From the NCBI GenBank assembly GCA_026014875.1, contig JAOZHO010000038.1, positions 1 to 33,952 on the forward strand: a stretch of DNA of 33,952 nt. The letters are read 5' to 3'. The position numbers and the translations under genes were made by a program. Each line of letters begins with the position of its first letter. Positions within the stretch are counted from its first letter, which is position 1. This document shows positions 13,809-25,432 of this stretch, piece after piece. The notes below the pieces were generated by a model. The model made no database searches. It saw nothing but the letters and a program-made list of their open reading frames with translations, and was not told the origin of the DNA. The stretch is from Candidatus Bathyarchaeota archaeon. GTDB lineage: Archaea > Thermoproteota > Bathyarchaeia > TCS64.

Positions 13809-14867
13809 ATGGATTCCCGTCAAAGAGTCCAAATGGCCCTAGATCACAAAGAGCCCGACAGGATCCCCATCCACGACAACCCGTGGCAGGCCACCGTGGA
13901 CCGATGGCGCTCCGAGGGGCTCCCCTCAGGCGTCGAGCCCAAGGACTACTTCGGATACGAGATCGTGGGGTACAAGCCGGACACGAGCCCCCTGTTCAAA
14001 GAGGAGATCATCTCCCTGGACGACGAATACATCGTGGAGAAGGACAGCTACGGCGGAATCAGAAAGAACCACAGGGACTTCTCCACCACCCCCATGATCA
14101 TCGACTACCCCTGCAAGAGCAGAGAAGACTGGGAGGCACTGAAGCCAAGGCTGGAGCCCAGCGACTTTCGGGTGAACTGGGTCTCCGACCTCAAGGACTC
14201 CCAGAGGGAGAGAAGCAGGGGGCGCTACGTCACCTACGAAGCGGTCGTGGGGTACGACAAGGCCCAGAAGTACGTCGCCTCGGAGAGGCTGCTCCGGGCG
14301 GTTCTCATGGAGCCGGAGTGGGTGAAGGACATGTACTGGACCGACGCCCGGCTCGTGATGGCGATGTGTGACAGGATGATGGAGGGGGGCTTCGAGTTCG
14401 ACGGGGCCTACCTATTCTGCGACCTGGGGTACCGTCACGGCCTCTTCTTCAGCCCCCGCCACTACGAGGAGCAGCTCCACCCCGTCTTCCAGGAGCTCTG
14501 CGACTACTTCCACGGCCACGACATGCAGGTCATCCTCCACACGTGCGGTAACGTCAAGGAGCTCATCCCCTACTTCATCGAGGCGGGGATCGACTGCCTC
14601 CAGCCCGTCGAGGTCAAGGCGGGGATGGACCTCAGGGAGCTCAAGGAAGAGTACGGGAACAAGATGGCCTATATGGGGGGCATCGACGTACGGCTCATGG
14701 CCCTCGACGACCCCAGGCCCATCGAGGAGGAGATCAGGGAGAAGGTCACCGCGGCCAAGGAGGGAGGGGGCTACATCTACCACTCCGATCACTCCGTCCC
14801 CAACAACGTGAGCTTCCAGCAGTACAAGAGAGTCTTAGAGCTCATAAGGAAATACGGGGAATACTGA
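13809..14867 (+). CDS. UroD-like cobalamin-dependent methyltransferase (substrate demethylase type)
   Basis: 352 residues of the uroporphyrinogen decarboxylase-like fold, used by methyltransferases that move a methyl group between a substrate and a corrinoid protein. The zinc motif LHTCGNV (H244, C246) is present; C263 in IDCLQPVE follows. Near the end the protein has YIYHSDHSVPNNVS, where MtaA/MtbA have a third cysteine region, so it belongs with the UroD-like substrate demethylases (such as MtoB, which O-demethylates methoxy-aromatics) rather than with coenzyme M methylases. There is no other haem gene nearby. The corrinoid protein starts two bases after its stop codon, so the pair is one operon. 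The methyl donor is not known. Confidence 0.87.
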   Translation: MDSRQRVQMALDHKEPDRIPIHDNPWQATVDRWRSEGLPSGVEPKDYFGYEIVGYKPDTSPLFKEEIISLDDEYIVEKDSYGGIRKNHRDFSTTPMIIDYPCKSREDWEALKPRLEPSDFRVNWVSDLKDSQRERSRGRYVTYEAVVGYDKAQKYVASERLLRAVLMEPEWVKDMYWTDARLVMAMCDRMMEGGFEFDGAYLFCDLGYRHGLFFSPRHYEEQLHPVFQELCDYFHGHDMQVILHTCGNVKELIPYFIEAGIDCLQPVEVKAGMDLRELKEEYGNKMAYMGGIDVRLMALDDPRPIEEEIREKVTAAKEGGGYIYHSDHSVPNNVSFQQYKRVLELIRKYGEY

Positions 14868-14869
14868 GC

Positions 14870-15520
14870 ATGACAGACGAGAGCAAGATCCTGGGAAAGC
14901 TAAGGGATGCCATCGTCGCGCTCGACATCCCCGGCCTCCAGGAGGCGTGCGAGGAGGCCATAACGGAGGGGGTCCCCGCTTACCGTGCGGTCGTCGAGGG
15001 CATGGCCAAGGGCATGGAGATCGTGGGGCAGAAGTACGAGGAGGGCGAGTACTATTTGGCCGAACTCATCATGGCAGGGGAGACCATGAGGGAGGGGATG
15101 GTGGTCCTAGAGCTCCACCTCACTGCGGGGGAGGTGTCCCGCGCCGGGAAGGCGGTCATCGGAACCGTGAAGGGGGACCTCCACGACATCGGGAAGAACG
15201 TCTTCCTCACCCTCCTTAGGGCCGCGAACTACGAGGTCATCGACCTGGGAGTAGACGTCTCCCCCGAAGGATTCCTCGAGGCCGTGAAAGAACACAGCCC
15301 CGACATCCTGGCCATGTCGGCTCTCCTCACAACCACCATGTTGGAGATGGAGAACGTAGTCGCGAAGCTGGAGAGCGAGGGGGTCCGGGAGGGACTCAAG
15401 GTCCTCATCGGAGGCGCCCCCATCAACGACGATTACGCCCAGAAGATCGGGGCGGACGCCGCTGCGAGGGACGCCGTCGACGGGGTCAAGATCGTCAACG
15501 GCTGGACCAGAGCAGGGTAG
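14870..15520 (+). CDS. Corrinoid-binding methyltransferase protein (MtaC/MtbC/MtoC-like)
   Basis: A 216-residue B12-binding protein that carries the methyl group between methyltransferases. Residues 1-88 form the helical cap domain. The Rossmann-like B12 domain follows with GTVKGDLHDIGKNVF, where H105 of the DxHxxG motif replaces the lower cobalt ligand, then LAMSALLTTTM and the VLIGGAPINDDYA loop that holds the nucleotide tail. Length is normal for the family. It is cotranscribed with the UroD-like gene, and the divergent MtrH-like enzyme would take the methyl group to tetrahydromethanopterin. The reductive activator (RamA-like) needed to rescue Co(II) is not in this window. Confidence 0.94.
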   Translation: MTDESKILGKLRDAIVALDIPGLQEACEEAITEGVPAYRAVVEGMAKGMEIVGQKYEEGEYYLAELIMAGETMREGMVVLELHLTAGEVSRAGKAVIGTVKGDLHDIGKNVFLTLLRAANYEVIDLGVDVSPEGFLEAVKEHSPDILAMSALLTTTMLEMENVVAKLESEGVREGLKVLIGGAPINDDYAQKIGADAAARDAVDGVKIVNGWTRAG

Positions 15521-19073: not shown

Positions 19074-19409
19074 AGGATCGCGAGCTTAATGGAGCGATGA
19101 GTCCAAGTGACTATTATGTTCCGCTTTTGACACAAACATTTAACAAAATAAATTGAGTTAACAAATTCGGATATCCGAAACCTAATCTTCTTAAAGAATC
19201 AAAAGAGTTAGTAGAAATATCATCACTGATAAAATAAGCTTCATAGAGTTTATGCATAATGGATGCAAGTAAATAGCTTGTATAAAGAGGGGGGATTCCC
19301 CTATTTTAACACGGTTATTACAATTATTTGACATATGGGCATTGGTAGGTCCAAAATTTTAAATAATAAACTATCAGATTGAATTCGGAAAAAACAAGGG
19401 GAAAACAAA
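19074..19409. other. AT-rich intergenic region with hairpin and promoter of the membrane operon
   Basis: No gene seen. AGGGG..CCCCT at 19288-19302 forms a short hairpin followed by TATTTTAA, which may end transcription from the left. A TATA-like AATTTTAAATAAT at 19355-19367 then precedes a ribosome-binding site AAGGGGA (19396-19402) eight bases before the first gene of the membrane operon, which therefore has a leadered mRNA, unlike most genes here. Confidence 0.55.
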
Positions 19410-20177
19410 ATGAGTTTTCAATTAGTAAGAGTAGACATACTAGCAGTCTTCATTATATCCTTTGGGACACTACTGATATCAGCATTCGTCTTGAAGGGTA
19501 CAAAACTACGTCAAATACCAACTGTGGAAGCTTCATTCGAAGCTGTCAGAGTAGCTACGGAGAAAGGGACACCTCTCCTCTTCGACACTGGATGGACGGG
19601 CGCCAACTTCTGGGGTCACTCAAGTGGCTTGACGACCCTGGCTTTCGTGCCTTCTACCTTGGAGTTGCTGAAGCAGATCTCTAAGGAAGCGGCTCCGCTT
19701 GGAGTCAGGATCATAACGGGCACCACCAACGCCGTCTATGCCATGATGTCTCGCGACTTCATGGAGGCGGGTTATGCTGAGGCAGGACATCCCGAGGCAT
19801 TTGTCCCAGAGGACATCAACTTCTACCCCGACAACACCGGCCTCGTAATGTCTGACGTGGATAAGATCCACAGGTTCAACATTGGAGCCGCCGTGATGAT
19901 CGGGGGACACAGCCAGACCTCGAACATCGTCATCTACGAGGCCTTGCACGCTACGGGCGCGATGCTCGTCGCCGGTGAGATCTGGCCAAACGACAACTCG
20001 ATGGCAGCACTCGTGGCTGACTACCTGAGCTTCGCAGAGGAGAACATCGCCATAGGCGCCTACCTGAGCGATGACCCCGTCCCCAAGGCAATCCTTGCGG
20101 GTGAAGATCTGATAAAGGCCTTCCTGATTGGAGTCATCGTACTCGGTAGCGTTCTCTTCCAGCTGGGGGTTCTATAG
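19410..20177 (+). CDS. Unassigned bitopic membrane protein, first gene of four-gene membrane operon
   Basis: A 255-residue protein I cannot assign. It has one membrane helix at residues 9-28, a soluble alpha/beta domain of about 200 residues, and a second helix at 237-255 that ends the protein. KGTKLRQ directly after the first helix suggests the soluble domain is cytoplasmic. The domain contains LLFDTGWTGANFWGHSSGLT and an AAVMIGGHSQTSNIVIYEAL segment that is weakly echoed in the third gene of the operon (MIG......IYVVRY..PVLEMGG). It may belong to a numbered domain of unknown function of the DUF6754 kind; I recall this only vaguely. The AAGGGGA ribosome-binding site fixes the ATG. The next gene begins with no gap. 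Confidence 0.8.
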   Translation: MSFQLVRVDILAVFIISFGTLLISAFVLKGTKLRQIPTVEASFEAVRVATEKGTPLLFDTGWTGANFWGHSSGLTTLAFVPSTLELLKQISKEAAPLGVRIITGTTNAVYAMMSRDFMEAGYAEAGHPEAFVPEDINFYPDNTGLVMSDVDKIHRFNIGAAVMIGGHSQTSNIVIYEALHATGAMLVAGEIWPNDNSMAALVADYLSFAEENIAIGAYLSDDPVPKAILAGEDLIKAFLIGVIVLGSVLFQLGVL

Positions 20178-20816
20178 TTGGGACAGCAAGAAAATTCGAT
20201 AATGGACCAGATCATGGCAAATCTGCCTACGGTCTTGGGCCTTATCGGCATGTTCATACTTGCTTCCCTCTACTGGACGGATCCCGGTTGGAGTTTCGCG
20301 GTGACTCTCAGGAACTCGGTCACGCTGTCCCTGCCCTGGCCTGTCGGCATCGTCTCGGTGCTGCTGATACGGAGACACGTCCGCAACATCATGCGGGGCG
20401 AGTCCACGTTGCCCTACGACGTCATCGTCGTCGGCGCAGCCATCTTGATGGTTGTTCTCGGGTTGGTCTCGGGACCTACTGATGTGACGCTCAAGGCAAT
20501 CTACGCCAACGTCAACATTATCGGGACTATGTCGGTCATTTCGGCAATCGCCATCAGCATCCTCTCGCCCATGATACGGATCTACCGCGCTAAGACGTGG
20601 ACCATGGCTTTCTTGATTGGGTTGAGCATCCTAGCTTTCATGACATACTCGCCTCTAGGCCAGATGATCCACCCCATTATTCCACAACTGGGTGACTTTG
20701 TACAGATATACATCTCGGGTGCGTCTGACTCAGCCTTCTGGATCAGCACGTACATCGGCGCCATTGCGCTGATCACCCGTATGATTCTGCTGAAGGAGAA
20801 GCTGAAGCCGAATTAG
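20178..20816 (+). CDS. Unassigned polytopic membrane protein, second gene of membrane operon
   Basis: A 212-residue protein with about six hydrophobic helices (near residues 16-33, 46-62, 81-100, 113-133, 142-162 and 187-205) and short loops; the RRHVRNIMRGES loop between helices 2 and 3 is basic and so cytoplasmic. I see no transporter or enzyme signature. The frame opens with a TTG immediately after the previous stop codon, with GGGGG nine bases ahead; an ATG at 20202 is the alternative and removes eight residues. Its zero spacing to the bitopic gene before it, and four bases to AGGAGG of the next, means the four products are made together and probably form one complex. Confidence 0.8.
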   Translation: MGQQENSIMDQIMANLPTVLGLIGMFILASLYWTDPGWSFAVTLRNSVTLSLPWPVGIVSVLLIRRHVRNIMRGESTLPYDVIVVGAAILMVVLGLVSGPTDVTLKAIYANVNIIGTMSVISAIAISILSPMIRIYRAKTWTMAFLIGLSILAFMTYSPLGQMIHPIIPQLGDFVQIYISGASDSAFWISTYIGAIALITRMILLKEKLKPN

Positions 20817-20829
20817 GAGGATGAATGAA

Positions 20830-21693
20830 ATGTCAAAGATAAATTGGAAGGATACACGGCTCATCTACATCATGGTCTTCGGGATAATCTATATCTCGTC
20901 GCTTGCACCGATAGCGCTTCCCGTACCCATAGTCCAATGGAGCAAAGACTTCTACGCAACAATCAACGAAGGGGTAACAGTCGACTTCGTCGACCCCCCG
21001 AGGGAGTTCGGGGGAGTCGAGGAGGGCACAAGGGTCTTCATCCTCAACAGCGGAGAAACGTCGAAGCTGTGGGGAGACATGAGTGAGGCGGTGATAACGG
21101 TTTGGAAGGACCTCAGGGCTAGGGGGGCAAACATTCTCCTCTGGTCCTCGAGCCCGGACAACGAGGCCACCCTAAACAAATATCTCCTACCGCTGATGTA
21201 CGGCGCTAACGTGCAGAACCACCCGGACTACGGCGTGAAGTTCGTCAACCTCGGCTACGTTGCCGGGGGCAACCAGCTACTAGAGCAGTGGAAGGACGAC
21301 CTCATAGCGATAACCCCCTACGATGCCTACGGTAACAGCCTGGCAGACATGCCGATGATTAGCAACTTCAACGAGATGAAGGTTGACGCAGACCTCATGA
21401 TCGGCCTTGACGCCCGTGGACTGGAGACCATCTACGTGGTCAGATACAACACCCCGGTCCTGGAGATGGGTGGAACCGACTCAGCATCCTACCTGGCCCT
21501 GAGCTACACCGCTGGATACTTCCAGGGTATGATCATGGGTCAGAGAGGAGGCGCCGAGTACGAGCTCCTATCCGGCATCCCGGGTAAAGCAATGTCCTAT
21601 CTACAGAACGCGTTCACGATCTCGACTGTAATGGTCATACTCATGATCGTGACAAACGTACAATATGTCCTAAAGAAAAAGGAGGAAAACTAA
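20830..21693 (+). CDS. Unassigned bitopic membrane protein, third gene of membrane operon
   Basis: A 287-residue protein with the same plan as the first gene: a membrane helix at residues 11-30, a soluble domain of about 220 residues, and a C-terminal helix followed by LKKKEEN. Positive charges before the first and after the second helix place both ends inside and the soluble domain outside the cell, opposite to the first gene. The domain includes VFILNSGETSKLWGDM, ILLWSSSPDNEATLNKYLLP and GGTDSASYLALSYTAGYFQG. The ribosome-binding site AGGAGG (20815-20820) touches an ATG at 20821 but is nine bases from the ATG at 20830, so I chose the latter. Function unknown. Confidence 0.8.
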   Translation: MSKINWKDTRLIYIMVFGIIYISSLAPIALPVPIVQWSKDFYATINEGVTVDFVDPPREFGGVEEGTRVFILNSGETSKLWGDMSEAVITVWKDLRARGANILLWSSSPDNEATLNKYLLPLMYGANVQNHPDYGVKFVNLGYVAGGNQLLEQWKDDLIAITPYDAYGNSLADMPMISNFNEMKVDADLMIGLDARGLETIYVVRYNTPVLEMGGTDSASYLALSYTAGYFQGMIMGQRGGAEYELLSGIPGKAMSYLQNAFTISTVMVILMIVTNVQYVLKKKEEN

Positions 21694-22422
21694 ATGGCTT
21701 CACCAATTGAACCATTGATGCCCTACCTGAACACCTTCATATTCTTCGCAGCTTATACGGTCCTGTACAAGAACAATCCCATGTACCGTATTGCCCAGAG
21801 CCTCGTCGTAGGCGTGGGTGCCGGCTACCTCCTGGTGGCCAACATCGACGCCTTCAACAGAGGCGTGATCATGAATACATTCGTAAATGGAAACATCAAC
21901 TGGGCCATGCTTCTTCCGTGGATCATGGGCCTAGCCTACCTCTGCATCTTCGTACCGAAACTGATCAACGTCTATAGAGCGGTCTCTATTCTGACGCTGA
22001 CCGTCGGTATGGGAGTGGTGCTGCCCTATGGTCCTGCGCTCTTCTGGACGGTGACCGTTGGATACGCCCAGAACGCCCTAAACTTCATGAGTGAAGGGCT
22101 GAGCGTGTCGACCGCTGGTCAATTCCTCACCGCAGTGTGCTACGCCTTGGCTCTCAGCTACTTCTTCTTCACGGACTACGCTGCTAAGCCTACTACTGTG
22201 TTCAGGAAACTGGGTCGCGTGGTGCTGCTGGTCTATACGGCCATGACCATCACGACAACTGCTTTGGGTAAGATTAACCTTTTACAGTGGAAGGTCTTGG
22301 ATACCCTTCAGGGCGTCCCTGCGACATGGTGGATTCCAGCGCTGATGTTTATTGTCATGCTTATTGACAATTTCTATCCGCTGAGGAATCTGATCGGAAA
22401 AGGCTCCGAAGTCTCAAGCTAA
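21694..22422 (+). CDS. Unassigned polytopic membrane protein, fourth gene of membrane operon
   Basis: A 242-residue protein with six or seven hydrophobic helices (roughly residues 11-25, 33-51, 68-90, 94-118, 142-161, 172-193 and 211-227). No recognised family motif; polar residues inside the helices are few. The start is set by GGAGG at 21681-21685, eight bases before the ATG, inside the end of the previous gene. The coding sequence begins directly after the previous stop. A T-rich terminator follows. With the second gene it supplies the multi-helix part of what looks like a heteromeric membrane complex. Confidence 0.8.
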   Translation: MASPIEPLMPYLNTFIFFAAYTVLYKNNPMYRIAQSLVVGVGAGYLLVANIDAFNRGVIMNTFVNGNINWAMLLPWIMGLAYLCIFVPKLINVYRAVSILTLTVGMGVVLPYGPALFWTVTVGYAQNALNFMSEGLSVSTAGQFLTAVCYALALSYFFFTDYAAKPTTVFRKLGRVVLLVYTAMTITTTALGKINLLQWKVLDTLQGVPATWWIPALMFIVMLIDNFYPLRNLIGKGSEVSS

Positions 22423-22431
22423 GCATCCCTA

Positions 22432-22457
22432 ACCCTTTTTTCTTTTATTTTTCTTTG
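22432..22457 (+). terminator. T-rich terminator of the membrane operon
   Basis: Several T-runs (CCCTTTTTTCTTTTATTTTTCTTTG) begin about ten bases after the last stop codon, without a stem, as is common for archaeal termination. Confidence 0.65.
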
Positions 22458-22660: not shown

Positions 22661-23056
22661 TTGTTCGAGGATGCGACGCCTGAACGCGAGGAGGAGCTCA
22701 TAGAGCAGGCTGCTCAATACATCGTCAGGCACGACTTGGAGGATTTCGCGCAGATCGCCCTGGAAGGCACCGCACCATTCGGGGACATCGTCGGGGAACT
22801 AGGCTTCATGATGACCTACCCTCTCGCGGTCACCTTCTTCAACAGGACGGGCTCAGACTTCATCAACATGCTTGGCTTCAATTACAAATTGAACGCCGAG
22901 AAAATTCTGAAGAGAATCGAAGAACTGAAAAAGGTTAAGGAGCTCCAAGAAAAGCACTTCAAAGAACAGGAAAAGTTCAAGAGAAAGCTCAAGGGAGCGC
23001 CAGAGGGATGGTTCGCTCGGCAATTATGGCGCCTCGGATTCAAGCGTAAGAAGTAG
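22661..23056 (+). CDS. Hypothetical helical protein with charged C-terminal coiled coil
   Basis: A 131-residue soluble protein that I do not recognise by function. Residues 1-80 are helical with a central hydrophobic part (GDIVGELGFMMTYPLAVTFF), reminiscent of a family of small archaeal helical proteins of unknown role. Residues 82-112 form a Lys/Glu-rich coiled coil (KRIEELKKVKELQEKHFKEQ), ending in a basic WRLGFKRKK tail that could bind nucleic acid or the membrane. The start is a TTG, with GGAG 13 bases ahead; TATA-like ATATAC near 22603 is available. It is followed by the NTF2-like gene on the same strand after 33 bases. Confidence 0.65.
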   Translation: MFEDATPEREEELIEQAAQYIVRHDLEDFAQIALEGTAPFGDIVGELGFMMTYPLAVTFFNRTGSDFINMLGFNYKLNAEKILKRIEELKKVKELQEKHFKEQEKFKRKLKGAPEGWFARQLWRLGFKRKK

Positions 23057-23089: not shown

Positions 23090-23515
23090 GTGAATGGTTT
23101 AGAGTACTTGTCTGAGACGGCTATCCGGGAGCGTGTGCATAGCTTCTGTCAAGCACTGTCCATGAGAAATCTGGAGAAGCTCGAGAGCCTTCTAACGCAC
23201 GAGGCGTCTGTCTCCTGGGGGCCCTACGACTTCGATGGAAAGGAGAGTATACTGACTTGGGCGGGGGAGTTACACGAACTCTTCCCTTTTATGGCTTTCA
23301 AGCAGAAGAGCCTCGAGGTCCAAGGTCCATCGGTCAAGCACGAGTTCTTGATAGCCTTCATGACATCGCAGGGGCAGAAGGGCTGGCTCCCCTGTAAGAG
23401 CACCTACGAGTTCAAGGGTGACCTGATCGATCGGGTGAATGTGAACCTTCTCCATGGCTTCCTCGCGATTAGCAGGGACGATGTAACGAGGGTCATGCCC
23501 CACGCGACAAGATAG
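23090..23515 (+). CDS. SnoaL/NTF2-like fold protein
   Basis: A 141-residue protein with the cone-shaped alpha+beta NTF2-like pattern: an N-terminal helix (REVHSFCQALSMRNLEKLES-like spacing), LLTHEASVSWGPYDFDGKES with the typical polar pocket residues, then four antiparallel strands ending in LIDRVNVNLL. The family ranges from isomerases and cyclases to non-enzymatic ligand carriers, so the function is open. The GTG start at 23090 is supported by GGAGG at 23076-23080, nine bases upstream. The last eight codons overlap the end of the convergent U32-family gene. Its place next to the UbiU/UbiV-like genes may be functional or chance. Confidence 0.7.
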   Translation: MNGLEYLSETAIRERVHSFCQALSMRNLEKLESLLTHEASVSWGPYDFDGKESILTWAGELHELFPFMAFKQKSLEVQGPSVKHEFLIAFMTSQGQKGWLPCKSTYEFKGDLIDRVNVNLLHGFLAISRDDVTRVMPHATR

Positions 23516-24362
23516 CAATGGCTTCATCGACGTCTTCTGTCGTCGACAGCATTGACACGGGGCCCATCGGGAGAACCATTTCCTCGACACCCGTCCTCTG
23601 CAGTTCTCTAATCTCGTTCCGGGTGGATTCTACAAGGCGGAAGACCACGTTGCCGTGAAGAACGAAGCTCTTGTTGAGCTCCTTCTGCTTGATGTCGAAC
23701 GCCTTGGTCAGACATGGCTTGGTGCAGAGAGCCGGCTCAGCCTCTCCGAGGAACCTCGCCGTGTGGCACCTCATGGTTAGTGCTACGGGCACGGCATAGG
23801 TGTGAACCGCTAGCCTGAATCCGTTCTTGACGATCTTTTTGTAGTGGGGAAAACTCTTGGGAATCCAGTCAACGTCAGCGCCCTCGACGCCCAGACTCCT
23901 GTAATACTCTAAGGCTCGTCTATAGTTGAGATTGGTCTGGTAGAAAATCTTCTCGACTTTACGGCGGGCTACAAAGGAGGGGTTGGGCATCCGGGTTATC
24001 TGGTCCCAGGGGCTCCTGCCGGGGATATACACTCGGGGTCTCCCAAGTCGTATGCGGAGGCCATCGTAATCCCGCAGTAGATTGAAGACACCGATGTCCC
24101 CGATGACTACATCAACATCCTCAAAATCGCTGATGTAAGCGAGGTGTTCCCGTATTTTCTCGACTCCTACATTCGAGAGAATAGGAACAACGTAGGTGAA
24201 GGCCTTCCCTGTGTCCTCGACCTCTTCGTGCGCTTTCTTCAATGTCTCTAGGCTCGGTATTTTCCACTCGCAGAACTCCATGCCGAATCGTATGCCCTCA
24301 CACTTGCTTGCCAGGGCTTCCCTGAGCTGGCTCAGGGTTTCGGTTTGAACGGTGAACTTCAT
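23493..24362 (-). CDS. U32-family Fe-S protein, UbiV-like (pair 1)
   Basis: A 289-residue TIM-barrel protein of the so-called peptidase U32 family. Cysteines C31, C199, C213 and C217 (last three in CHTARFLGEAEPALCTKPC) match the four [4Fe-4S] ligands of UbiV (one early Cys, then C-x12-C-x3-C), here C-x13-C-x3-C. In bacteria UbiU and UbiV act as a dimer in oxygen-independent hydroxylation during ubiquinone synthesis. Archaea do not make ubiquinone, so the substrate is different. Its ATG overlaps the stop of the UbiU-like gene before it (ATGA), so the two are made together. A second such pair starts head-to-head about 110 bases from pair 1. Confidence 0.86.
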   Translation of the reverse strand: MKFTVQTETLSQLREALASKCEGIRFGMEFCEWKIPSLETLKKAHEEVEDTGKAFTYVVPILSNVGVEKIREHLAYISDFEDVDVVIGDIGVFNLLRDYDGLRIRLGRPRVYIPGRSPWDQITRMPNPSFVARRKVEKIFYQTNLNYRRALEYYRSLGVEGADVDWIPKSFPHYKKIVKNGFRLAVHTYAVPVALTMRCHTARFLGEAEPALCTKPCLTKAFDIKQKELNKSFVLHGNVVFRLVESTRNEIRELQRTGVEEMVLPMGPVSMLSTTEDVDEAIAILSRGA

Positions 24363-25432
24363 GGCTGGACCACTAGGAGTTTACACTGGAGCTTGGTCCA
24401 CGTTTGCCAGTTCAGCTTCTCCTTATATGGAGCATGGAACGCGGGGGCATAGTAGCACCGCTCCTGTTCGCAGCAGAGCTCTCGGAGATTGGTCAACGGG
24501 AGGGTCTGGGGTAGGGGTACGAAGGTGTCCTTGATGGATTCAAGCTTCTCGATGAAGCTCTCCTCGTCGCCCCGTTGGAGCATATCCAGGGATTCCCTGT
24601 ACAGCCTCGTAGTAGAGGCTTGGTACTCCTCGTTGATGCCCCTTCCCTCAATCTTCAGACCATACACGCCGGTACGGATCAGGGCGGGGAGCTTGCAGAG
24701 GGAGCAGAAGGTGTACGCGTCAACGATGGGGAAGGTGCCAAGTTTGGCCCCTTCATCACCTCTGTCGTAGACCTCGTAGGGGAGAGAACAGGGGAACTTG
24801 ACGCCGTCTATGGTGAGGTAGCCCTGGTCCATCGCGGGGAACTTGTAGTGATAGAAATAGCAGTTCACGTTCACGTTGGAGCATCCCGAGCCATGGACGA
24901 AGACCTCCACCTCCACGCCGCTGTCCCCGGCTATCTCGGGAATCTGCTCGAAGGGCACATGCCTCTCTAGGACGACGCGGGAGAAGCCCGCCCGGCGCAG
25001 GAACTCCACCGACTCCCGGTTCATCGCCGCCAGGTAGGTGCTCGCGCAGAGTTTTATGTTAGGGGCCACTTTTTTTACCAGCTGGAGCATCCCCAGATCG
25101 CCCACGATCAGGCTGTCCGCTCCCGCCTCGACGCAGTTGCGTATGTGTTTGGTCATTGTGCCCTCCATCGAGTCTATGATGAAGGGTTGGTTGATCGTCA
25201 CGAAGACCTCTACGTCATGCTTGTGGGCGTGTTCTGTGACTCGGCAGAACTCGTCGTACGTCTGGATATCCGTGGATGCTCCGCGGTATAGCTCGAATTC
25301 TTCGAGCCCGGGCGTCCGGACTCCGCAGTAAATCTCGTCAGCCCCAGCCTCTATGACTTTGACCGCCCCGGTGTAGGCCTTTGTGGGGGAGAGAATCTTG
25401 GGGATCGCCGTGATATGGGGGGAGTTGGCCAT
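24359..25432 (-). CDS. U32-family Fe-S protein, UbiU-like (pair 1)
   Basis: A 357-residue U32-family protein with AYTGAVKVIEAGADEIYCG at its start, CASTYLAAMN in the barrel, and C184-x6-C191 (in GSGCSNVNVNC) followed by C215, C243 and C246. UbiU uses a C-x6-C-x16-C-x38-C set for its [4Fe-4S] cluster; the first pair and overall order are the same, with shifted later spacings. This argues against a protease and for an Fe-S redox or radical-independent hydroxylase-type function. TATA-like CTTTAAATC at 25461-25469 would give a nearly leaderless mRNA. It is transcribed divergently from its own paralogue (pair 2), with which it shares the positions of all five cysteines. Confidence 0.86.
   Translation of the reverse strand: MANSPHITAIPKILSPTKAYTGAVKVIEAGADEIYCGVRTPGLEEFELYRGASTDIQTYDEFCRVTEHAHKHDVEVFVTINQPFIIDSMEGTMTKHIRNCVEAGADSLIVGDLGMLQLVKKVAPNIKLCASTYLAAMNRESVEFLRRAGFSRVVLERHVPFEQIPEIAGDSGVEVEVFVHGSGCSNVNVNCYFYHYKFPAMDQGYLTIDGVKFPCSLPYEVYDRGDEGAKLGTFPIVDAYTFCSLCKLPALIRTGVYGLKIEGRGINEEYQASTTRLYRESLDMLQRGDEESFIEKLESIKDTFVPLPQTLPLTNLRELCCEQERCYYAPAFHAPYKEKLNWQTWTKLQCKLLVVQP

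Follow-up and report, generated by a model that had tools for sequence, protein, structure and literature searches.

DUF6754 (PF20539) is entered in Pfam as a single domain of unknown function, without cassette, partners or topology, and we found no literature naming it in a search that mostly lay outside subscription journals. Proteins of the MutL/GlmL family (PF13941, glmL_fam) share an ASKHA ATPase core with characteristic motifs. Actin-fold ATPases with bitopic partners are known in envelope machines, for example PilM-PilN-PilO of type IV pili, where a cytoplasmic ATPase of this fold works with bitopic inner-membrane proteins. ECF (group II) transporters, built from ABC ATPases and small S proteins, let many substrate modules share few energising modules, and Rnf has inverted homologous subunits.

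The system described here comprises a cassette of four membrane-protein genes (A-D) and a soluble partner module (E, F and G). Protein A belongs to DUF6754. G has the ASKHA core and motifs of MutL/GlmL proteins, but carries about 100-150 extra C-terminal residues and occurs with F, E and ABCD instead of mutase genes. As in type IV pili, a predicted actin-fold cytoplasmic ATPase goes together with bitopic membrane proteins; unlike PilN and PilO, which matched neither A nor C by fold or sequence, these have six-unit alpha/beta domains between two helices and occur in many copies per genome. The likeness to ECF transporters is in idea only, with a predicted actin-fold ATPase and four membrane proteins per module here, and no sequence relation was found. 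F contains a barrel-sandwich stretch weakly similar to RnfC_N (E 0.012), and no Rnf/Nqr subunit matched in A-D. We know of no characterised four-protein membrane complex with ATPase partners of this kind and, from this knowledge and a limited survey of the literature, the assembled system appears to be undescribed, though its individual domains have database names.

Conservation of the four-gene cassette

The window, that is, the whole analysed stretch of 33,952 nucleotides, comes from a 2.5 Mb genome of a Candidatus Bathyarchaeota archaeon, and those of its relatives that appear in named collections belong to Bathyarchaeia. The initial annotation had singled out four packed genes sharing one promoter and one T-run terminator, two of them with strong ribosome-binding sites, and all these features were recovered (Table 1). 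The gene coordinates agreed, with spacings of 0 (A-B), 13 (B-C, to the ATG at 20830) and 0 (C-D) bases; a TATA-like consensus match was located 41-53 bases upstream of A; and the terminator-like run after D and the AGGAGG motifs preceding C and D were read from the sequence. The later of two possible starts of C was chosen, as it fits both the Shine-Dalgarno motif and the N-terminus of the homologue in a related genome (G022), and the homologues of B begin at the same place as B of the window.

Table 1. Genes and putative expression signals of the cassette in the window.
Feature	Positions	Strand	Description	Basis
Gene A	19410-20177	+	255 aa; bitopic, DUF6754; soluble domain predicted cytoplasmic	Pfam, AlphaFold, topology, HMM
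Gene B	20178-20816	+	212 aa; TTG start; polytopic membrane protein, no family	HMM, homologue starts
Gene C	20830-21693	+	287 aa; bitopic, extracytoplasmic alpha/beta domain, no family	AlphaFold, topology, HMM
Gene C, alternative start	20821-21693	+	ATG at 20821, giving 290 aa	ORF open from there
Gene D	21694-22422	+	242 aa; polytopic membrane protein, no family	HMM
Gene E	22661-23056	+	Small soluble protein, beyond the segment initially annotated	Cluster, HMM
TATA-like archaeal promoter element	19357-19369	+	Putative	Consensus match only
BRE-like stretch	19350-19356	+	A-rich, upstream of the TATA-like element	Read from sequence
AAGGGG	19396-19401	+	Ahead of gene A	Read from sequence
AGGAGG	20815-20820	+	Shine-Dalgarno of gene C; overlaps the stop codon of B	Read from sequence
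AGGAGG	21680-21685	+	Shine-Dalgarno of gene D	Read from sequence
T-rich run	22436-22457	+	After D; probable archaeal transcription terminator	Read from sequence

Cassettes were sampled from 40 regions of related genomes, 80 contigs retrieved through protein F and 40 regions round further bacterial and archaeal DUF6754 genes. All 88 distinct complete cassettes run A-B-C-D with the four genes on a single strand, separated by 7, 0 and -4 bases (medians), and their carriers included Bathyarchaeia, Culexarchaeia, Bacillota, WOR-3, Zixibacteria and Fermentibacteria, among others; the four genes thus stay together in relatives. Gene A was found in 29 of the 61 related genomes, all within the taxonomic order of the window, at 1-15 copies each, and up to 15 diverged cassettes coexist in a single genome. 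In the window, the four contiguous same-strand genes were each recognised by HMMs built without the window's clade (A, E 8.9e-46; B, E 5e-26; C, E 3.5e-44; D, E 7.7e-28), and none of the A-D HMMs matched a sister protein. The bacterial cassettes grouped as a single clade of 34 leaves (support 0.998) nested in a broader archaeal diversity, with a single Patescibacteria-labelled contig (n = 1) grouping with the archaea. Since the neighbouring genes vary freely, the conserved unit is the cassette and not its surroundings.

Together with one other cassette, the copy in the window deviates the most, differing at 28% of the strongly conserved positions against a median of 8%. Four genomes nonetheless retain it under purifying selection, with dN/dS of 0.05-0.13 relative to two related genomes (G020 and G022) and of 0.08-0.37, a noisy estimate from few substitutions, relative to the close relative G002. 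It is probably a specialised version. Cassette distances correlated for every pair of A-D proteins (mirror-tree r of 0.82-0.88; permutations at most 0.14), indicating that the four proteins evolve as a unit. As part of this correlation stems from shared ancestry, the mirror-tree analysis was repeated within a single genome (G014), whose 15 paralogues share 17-47% identity; r was 0.39-0.68, with at most 4 of 500 permutations as high. A-D are inherited in matched sets, a pattern that fits an obligate heteromeric complex. The heteromeric unit proposed initially is supported, by gene order and mirror-tree, as a co-evolving set, from which we infer physical assembly.

Topology and fold of A-D

Protein A exceeded the DUF6754 gathering cut-off of 27 by far (87.2 bits, E 1.2e-24, residues 14-252), and bacterial A proteins matched the family at E 1e-121 to 1e-123. 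B, C and D had no Pfam match above cut-off; none of A-D matched NCBIfam or, by sequence search, a solved structure; and no characterised relative of A, C, F or G was found among solved structures. Comparisons with Pfam, NCBIfam and the PDB (at the level of folds for A and C) revealed neither a relation of A-D to characterised transporters nor clear homology to a known transporter or respiratory complex. The earlier statement that the locus matches no known system accordingly holds for characterised systems, but not for families, as gene A does belong to one. A role in anti-phage defence was rejected, A-G being without a PADLOC model match, as was plasmid or phage cargo, a bacterial A protein having no match in plasmid and phage collections.

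In both A and C, one helix lies at either end of a soluble domain some 200 residues long, as first proposed and as seen in both the models and the topology analysis. Positive charges lie on the side of the soluble domain in A and on the other side in C, indicating that A faces inward and C outward. The positive-inside rule places the soluble domain inside for 73 of 80 A homologues and outside for 77 of 81 C homologues, and the prediction is the same for the window proteins, in keeping with the opposite topologies first suggested. For B and D, the original count of six to seven helices was not reproduced: a crude hydropathy scan, a method that undercounts, gave five helices in B and three in D of the window, and 4-5 and 3-4, respectively, in most homologues. 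Homology between B and D was considered and discarded, as profile comparison detected no similarity. A conserved cysteine cluster suited to redox centres was not found in A-D.

The AlphaFold models of A and C (pLDDT 88 and 89, respectively) have the same order of elements, namely, a helix, six beta-alpha units and a helix. Foldseek returned no close solved structure for either, with best TM-scores of ~0.2-0.3 for C and ~0.35-0.39 for A, the latter to sugar-phosphate isomerase-like (MurQ) folds. Profile-profile comparison aligned A and C along their length with a score of 35.9, against a maximum of 26.1 for column-shuffled profiles and 16.8 for a reversed profile. For the soluble domains alone, the score was 31.5, a value that an unrelated alpha/beta family equalled. 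Because unrelated alpha/beta families score this high against the soluble-domain profiles, the ancient duplication put forward in the initial annotation is unproven by sequence; the profile score above the shuffles and the shared element order make it suggestive, and common descent of A and C plausible. The segment MIG...IY...GG, noted in both proteins from the outset, maps to alpha/beta unit four in the A and C models alike and is at least in register.

Bitopic proteins next to a putative actin-fold ATPase recall PilM-PilN-PilO and raise the idea of an envelope machine in which such an ATPase would power a complex for scaffolding or trafficking lipids, surface proteins or envelope polymers. 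The long exported N-terminal extensions of bacterial A proteins would suit it, as would the genes for UbiA prenyltransferase and glycosyltransferase that immediately precede the cassette in the window. However, these upstream genes are not kept within the same clade, the window-type cassette of G020 adjoining shikimate genes; C does not have a PilN/O-like fold by search; and 15 diverged copies would not be expected of such a machine, which we therefore consider quite unlikely.

The soluble partner module

Three more families, E, F and G, travel with the cassette; neither this module nor the multiplication of paralogues had been noted initially. G, of about 610 residues, contains the MutL/GlmL ASKHA core (PF13941, E 3.5e-114), in which the phosphate-1 motif is kept in 65 of 69 and the adenosine motif in 67 of 69 sequences, and is predicted to be a MutL-type actin-fold ATPase. 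In NCBIfam, it fails the cut-offs for the GlmL equivalog (201.8 bits versus 475), Or-4 (205.5 versus 600) and glmL_fam (142 versus 204). F has about 385 residues and a C-terminus that looks KOW-like, by eye and from a weak Spt5 match. The presence of lipoate ligase in bacterial operons suggested that F could be a lipoyl or biotinyl carrier, an idea rejected because its lysine is out of the canonical register: eleven residues ahead of the conserved glycine of the hairpin, 49 of 53 sequences have a leucine, not a modifiable lysine, and the conserved lysine (K111, alignment A1; 46 of 53) is two residues past the canonical site. The small soluble protein E, which clusters in 18 loci, accompanies both cassettes and the G-F pair; E of the window was recovered by an HMM built without its clade (E 7e-22) and is conserved in the sister genome G002.

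G and F are adjacent in virtually every complete locus, often beside E. Among 41 genomes chosen only for having F, 37 contained A, whereas none of 14 well-known control genomes carries DUF6754; within the class, the genomes holding G-F almost coincide with those holding A, with G039, which has G-F-E without a detected A, as the exception. All seven genes form the run A-B-C-D-E-G-F in an archaeal locus (L232, in G014) and the run E-G-F-A-B-C-D in bacteria (L097, L146 and, with several cassettes, L113). That the seven adjoin one another in both domains, and in a different arrangement in each, argues strongly for a functional link. With 1-5 G-F pairs per genome against up to 15 ABCD cassettes, the copy numbers suggest exchangeable modules sharing an ATPase.

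Numerous diverged copies in variable contexts would also be compatible with transmembrane sensors, in which C would bind an outside ligand and A would signal to G-F-E controlling metabolism or transcription, the paralogues sensing different ligands. The mirror-image arrangement of A and C would suit the passing of a signal, and so would a G'-F' subfamily that has a degenerate ATPase motif and is divergent to an ArsR-like HTH gene. Yet the HTH genes adjoin G'-F' and not ABCD, no kinase, cyclase or HTH protein is a partner of the cassettes themselves, and two conserved polytopic subunits exceed what a sensor needs, so that we regard this explanation as unlikely.

The G'-F' pair is shorter than G-F, with a degenerate ASKHA phosphate motif, and is found in many of the same archaea, mostly without adjacent ABCD (L221 8179-10861, L222 7894-10579, L223 8699-11335 and L224 8493-11136). 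Recurrent neighbours of E and the cassettes include a small membrane protein that carries the motif (N)DYxAGAMLANG and weakly resembles DUF3792/TIGR04086 (L056:9610-10071, L051:9439-9909, L063:11550-11972 and L062:960-1370). In six archaeal loci, D is followed by a DUF483-related protein some 290 residues long, and in Bacillota a relative of it comes after G-F (L037:5419-6309, L051:4817-5698 and L093 are examples of these loci).

Gene neighbourhoods and a candidate function in solute transport

In 14 bacterial loci from several phyla, glycine-cleavage P-protein genes, often with gcvT and gcvH, lie 2-6 genes upstream on the same strand, preceding G-F and often the whole run E-G-F-ABCD (L097, L102, L110, L112, L117, L122, L124, L125, L127, L132, L139, L140, L143 and L146); several glycine-cleavage loci have lipoate ligase downstream. 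Chance alone would, on a rough calculation, yield less than one locus of this kind in the set of contigs, and in these bacteria the upstream genes tie the system to the breakdown of amino acids. GlmL, which occurs beside glutamate mutase, and a GlmL-like protein of ornithine breakdown offer an analogy by which the complex might serve as a factor that, anchored in the membrane, activates or reactivates amino-acid enzymes, given that G matches MutL (PF13941) and sits in glycine-cleavage operons, some with lipoate ligase. This role seems very unlikely to us, as the scores of G fall far short of the GlmL equivalog cut-offs, most cassettes are far from glycine-cleavage or mutase genes, and four membrane proteins in numerous versions are more than such a factor would require. 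A literature search for GlmL together with glycine cleavage returned nothing relevant.

The copy numbers, the glycine-cleavage loci and a gut-bacterial cassette with four C genes (A-B-C-C-C-D-C; L147 11179-18096), an arrangement expected if C recognises substrates, lead us to favour, tentatively, a new multi-subunit solute transporter, in which exchangeable ABCD membrane modules would be served by a common G-F ATPase module. A, B, C and D would form one heteromeric membrane complex, with B and D as the polytopic core and solute path. The alpha/beta domain of C would meet the substrate outside, and that of A, built on the same plan, would relay the state of the complex in the cytoplasm. ABCD would work with the soluble module of G, F and E, and G-F would drive or gate it at the expense of ATP, the presumed ligand of G. 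The putative task is to take up or exchange small solutes connected with the breakdown of amino acids, each ABCD cassette being one substrate version and one or few G-F pairs serving all cassettes of a cell.

Several observations weigh against the transporter. Its components are homologous to no transporter or solved structure; bacterial cassettes often adjoin unrelated housekeeping genes; and the G-F pairs of the window genome are on other contigs (C35 and C50) than its cassette. The neighbours of archaeal and Bacillota cassettes include M20 peptidases, amidohydrolases and aminotransferases, but such catabolic enzymes are hardly above background: the three classes pooled gave p 0.02, a weak result as they were picked after seeing the data, and M20 peptidases were discarded as a substrate clue, with 7 observed against 5.0 expected in a genome-wide test. 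Nor do cassettes seem to replace ABC permeases, which, by count, are not scarce in genomes with many cassettes. The fuller proposal of an undescribed transporter class, ancient and spread across archaea and many bacterial phyla, in which homologous, mirror-image A (inside) and C (outside) would flank a polytopic core energised by a shared actin-fold MutL-type ATPase, is more doubtful.

Were the transporter reading correct, it would imply a new principle of energisation, with an actin-fold ATPase in place of an ABC ATPase or ion gradient, could explain the uptake of organic nitrogen by Bathyarchaeia and related anaerobes, and would give MutL/GlmL-type proteins a role. Even as a sensor or an envelope machine, a seven-protein membrane system present in two domains of life, and in up to 15 versions in some uncultured archaea, marks a widespread gap in the cellular parts list.

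Elsewhere in the window, a gene of the URO-D family (methyltransferase-like) is followed by one for a B12-binding corrinoid protein (13809-15517), and a pair of minus-strand genes that overlap each other occupies 23493-25432, the first of which (289 aa) resembles, by eye, a U32-type peptidase.
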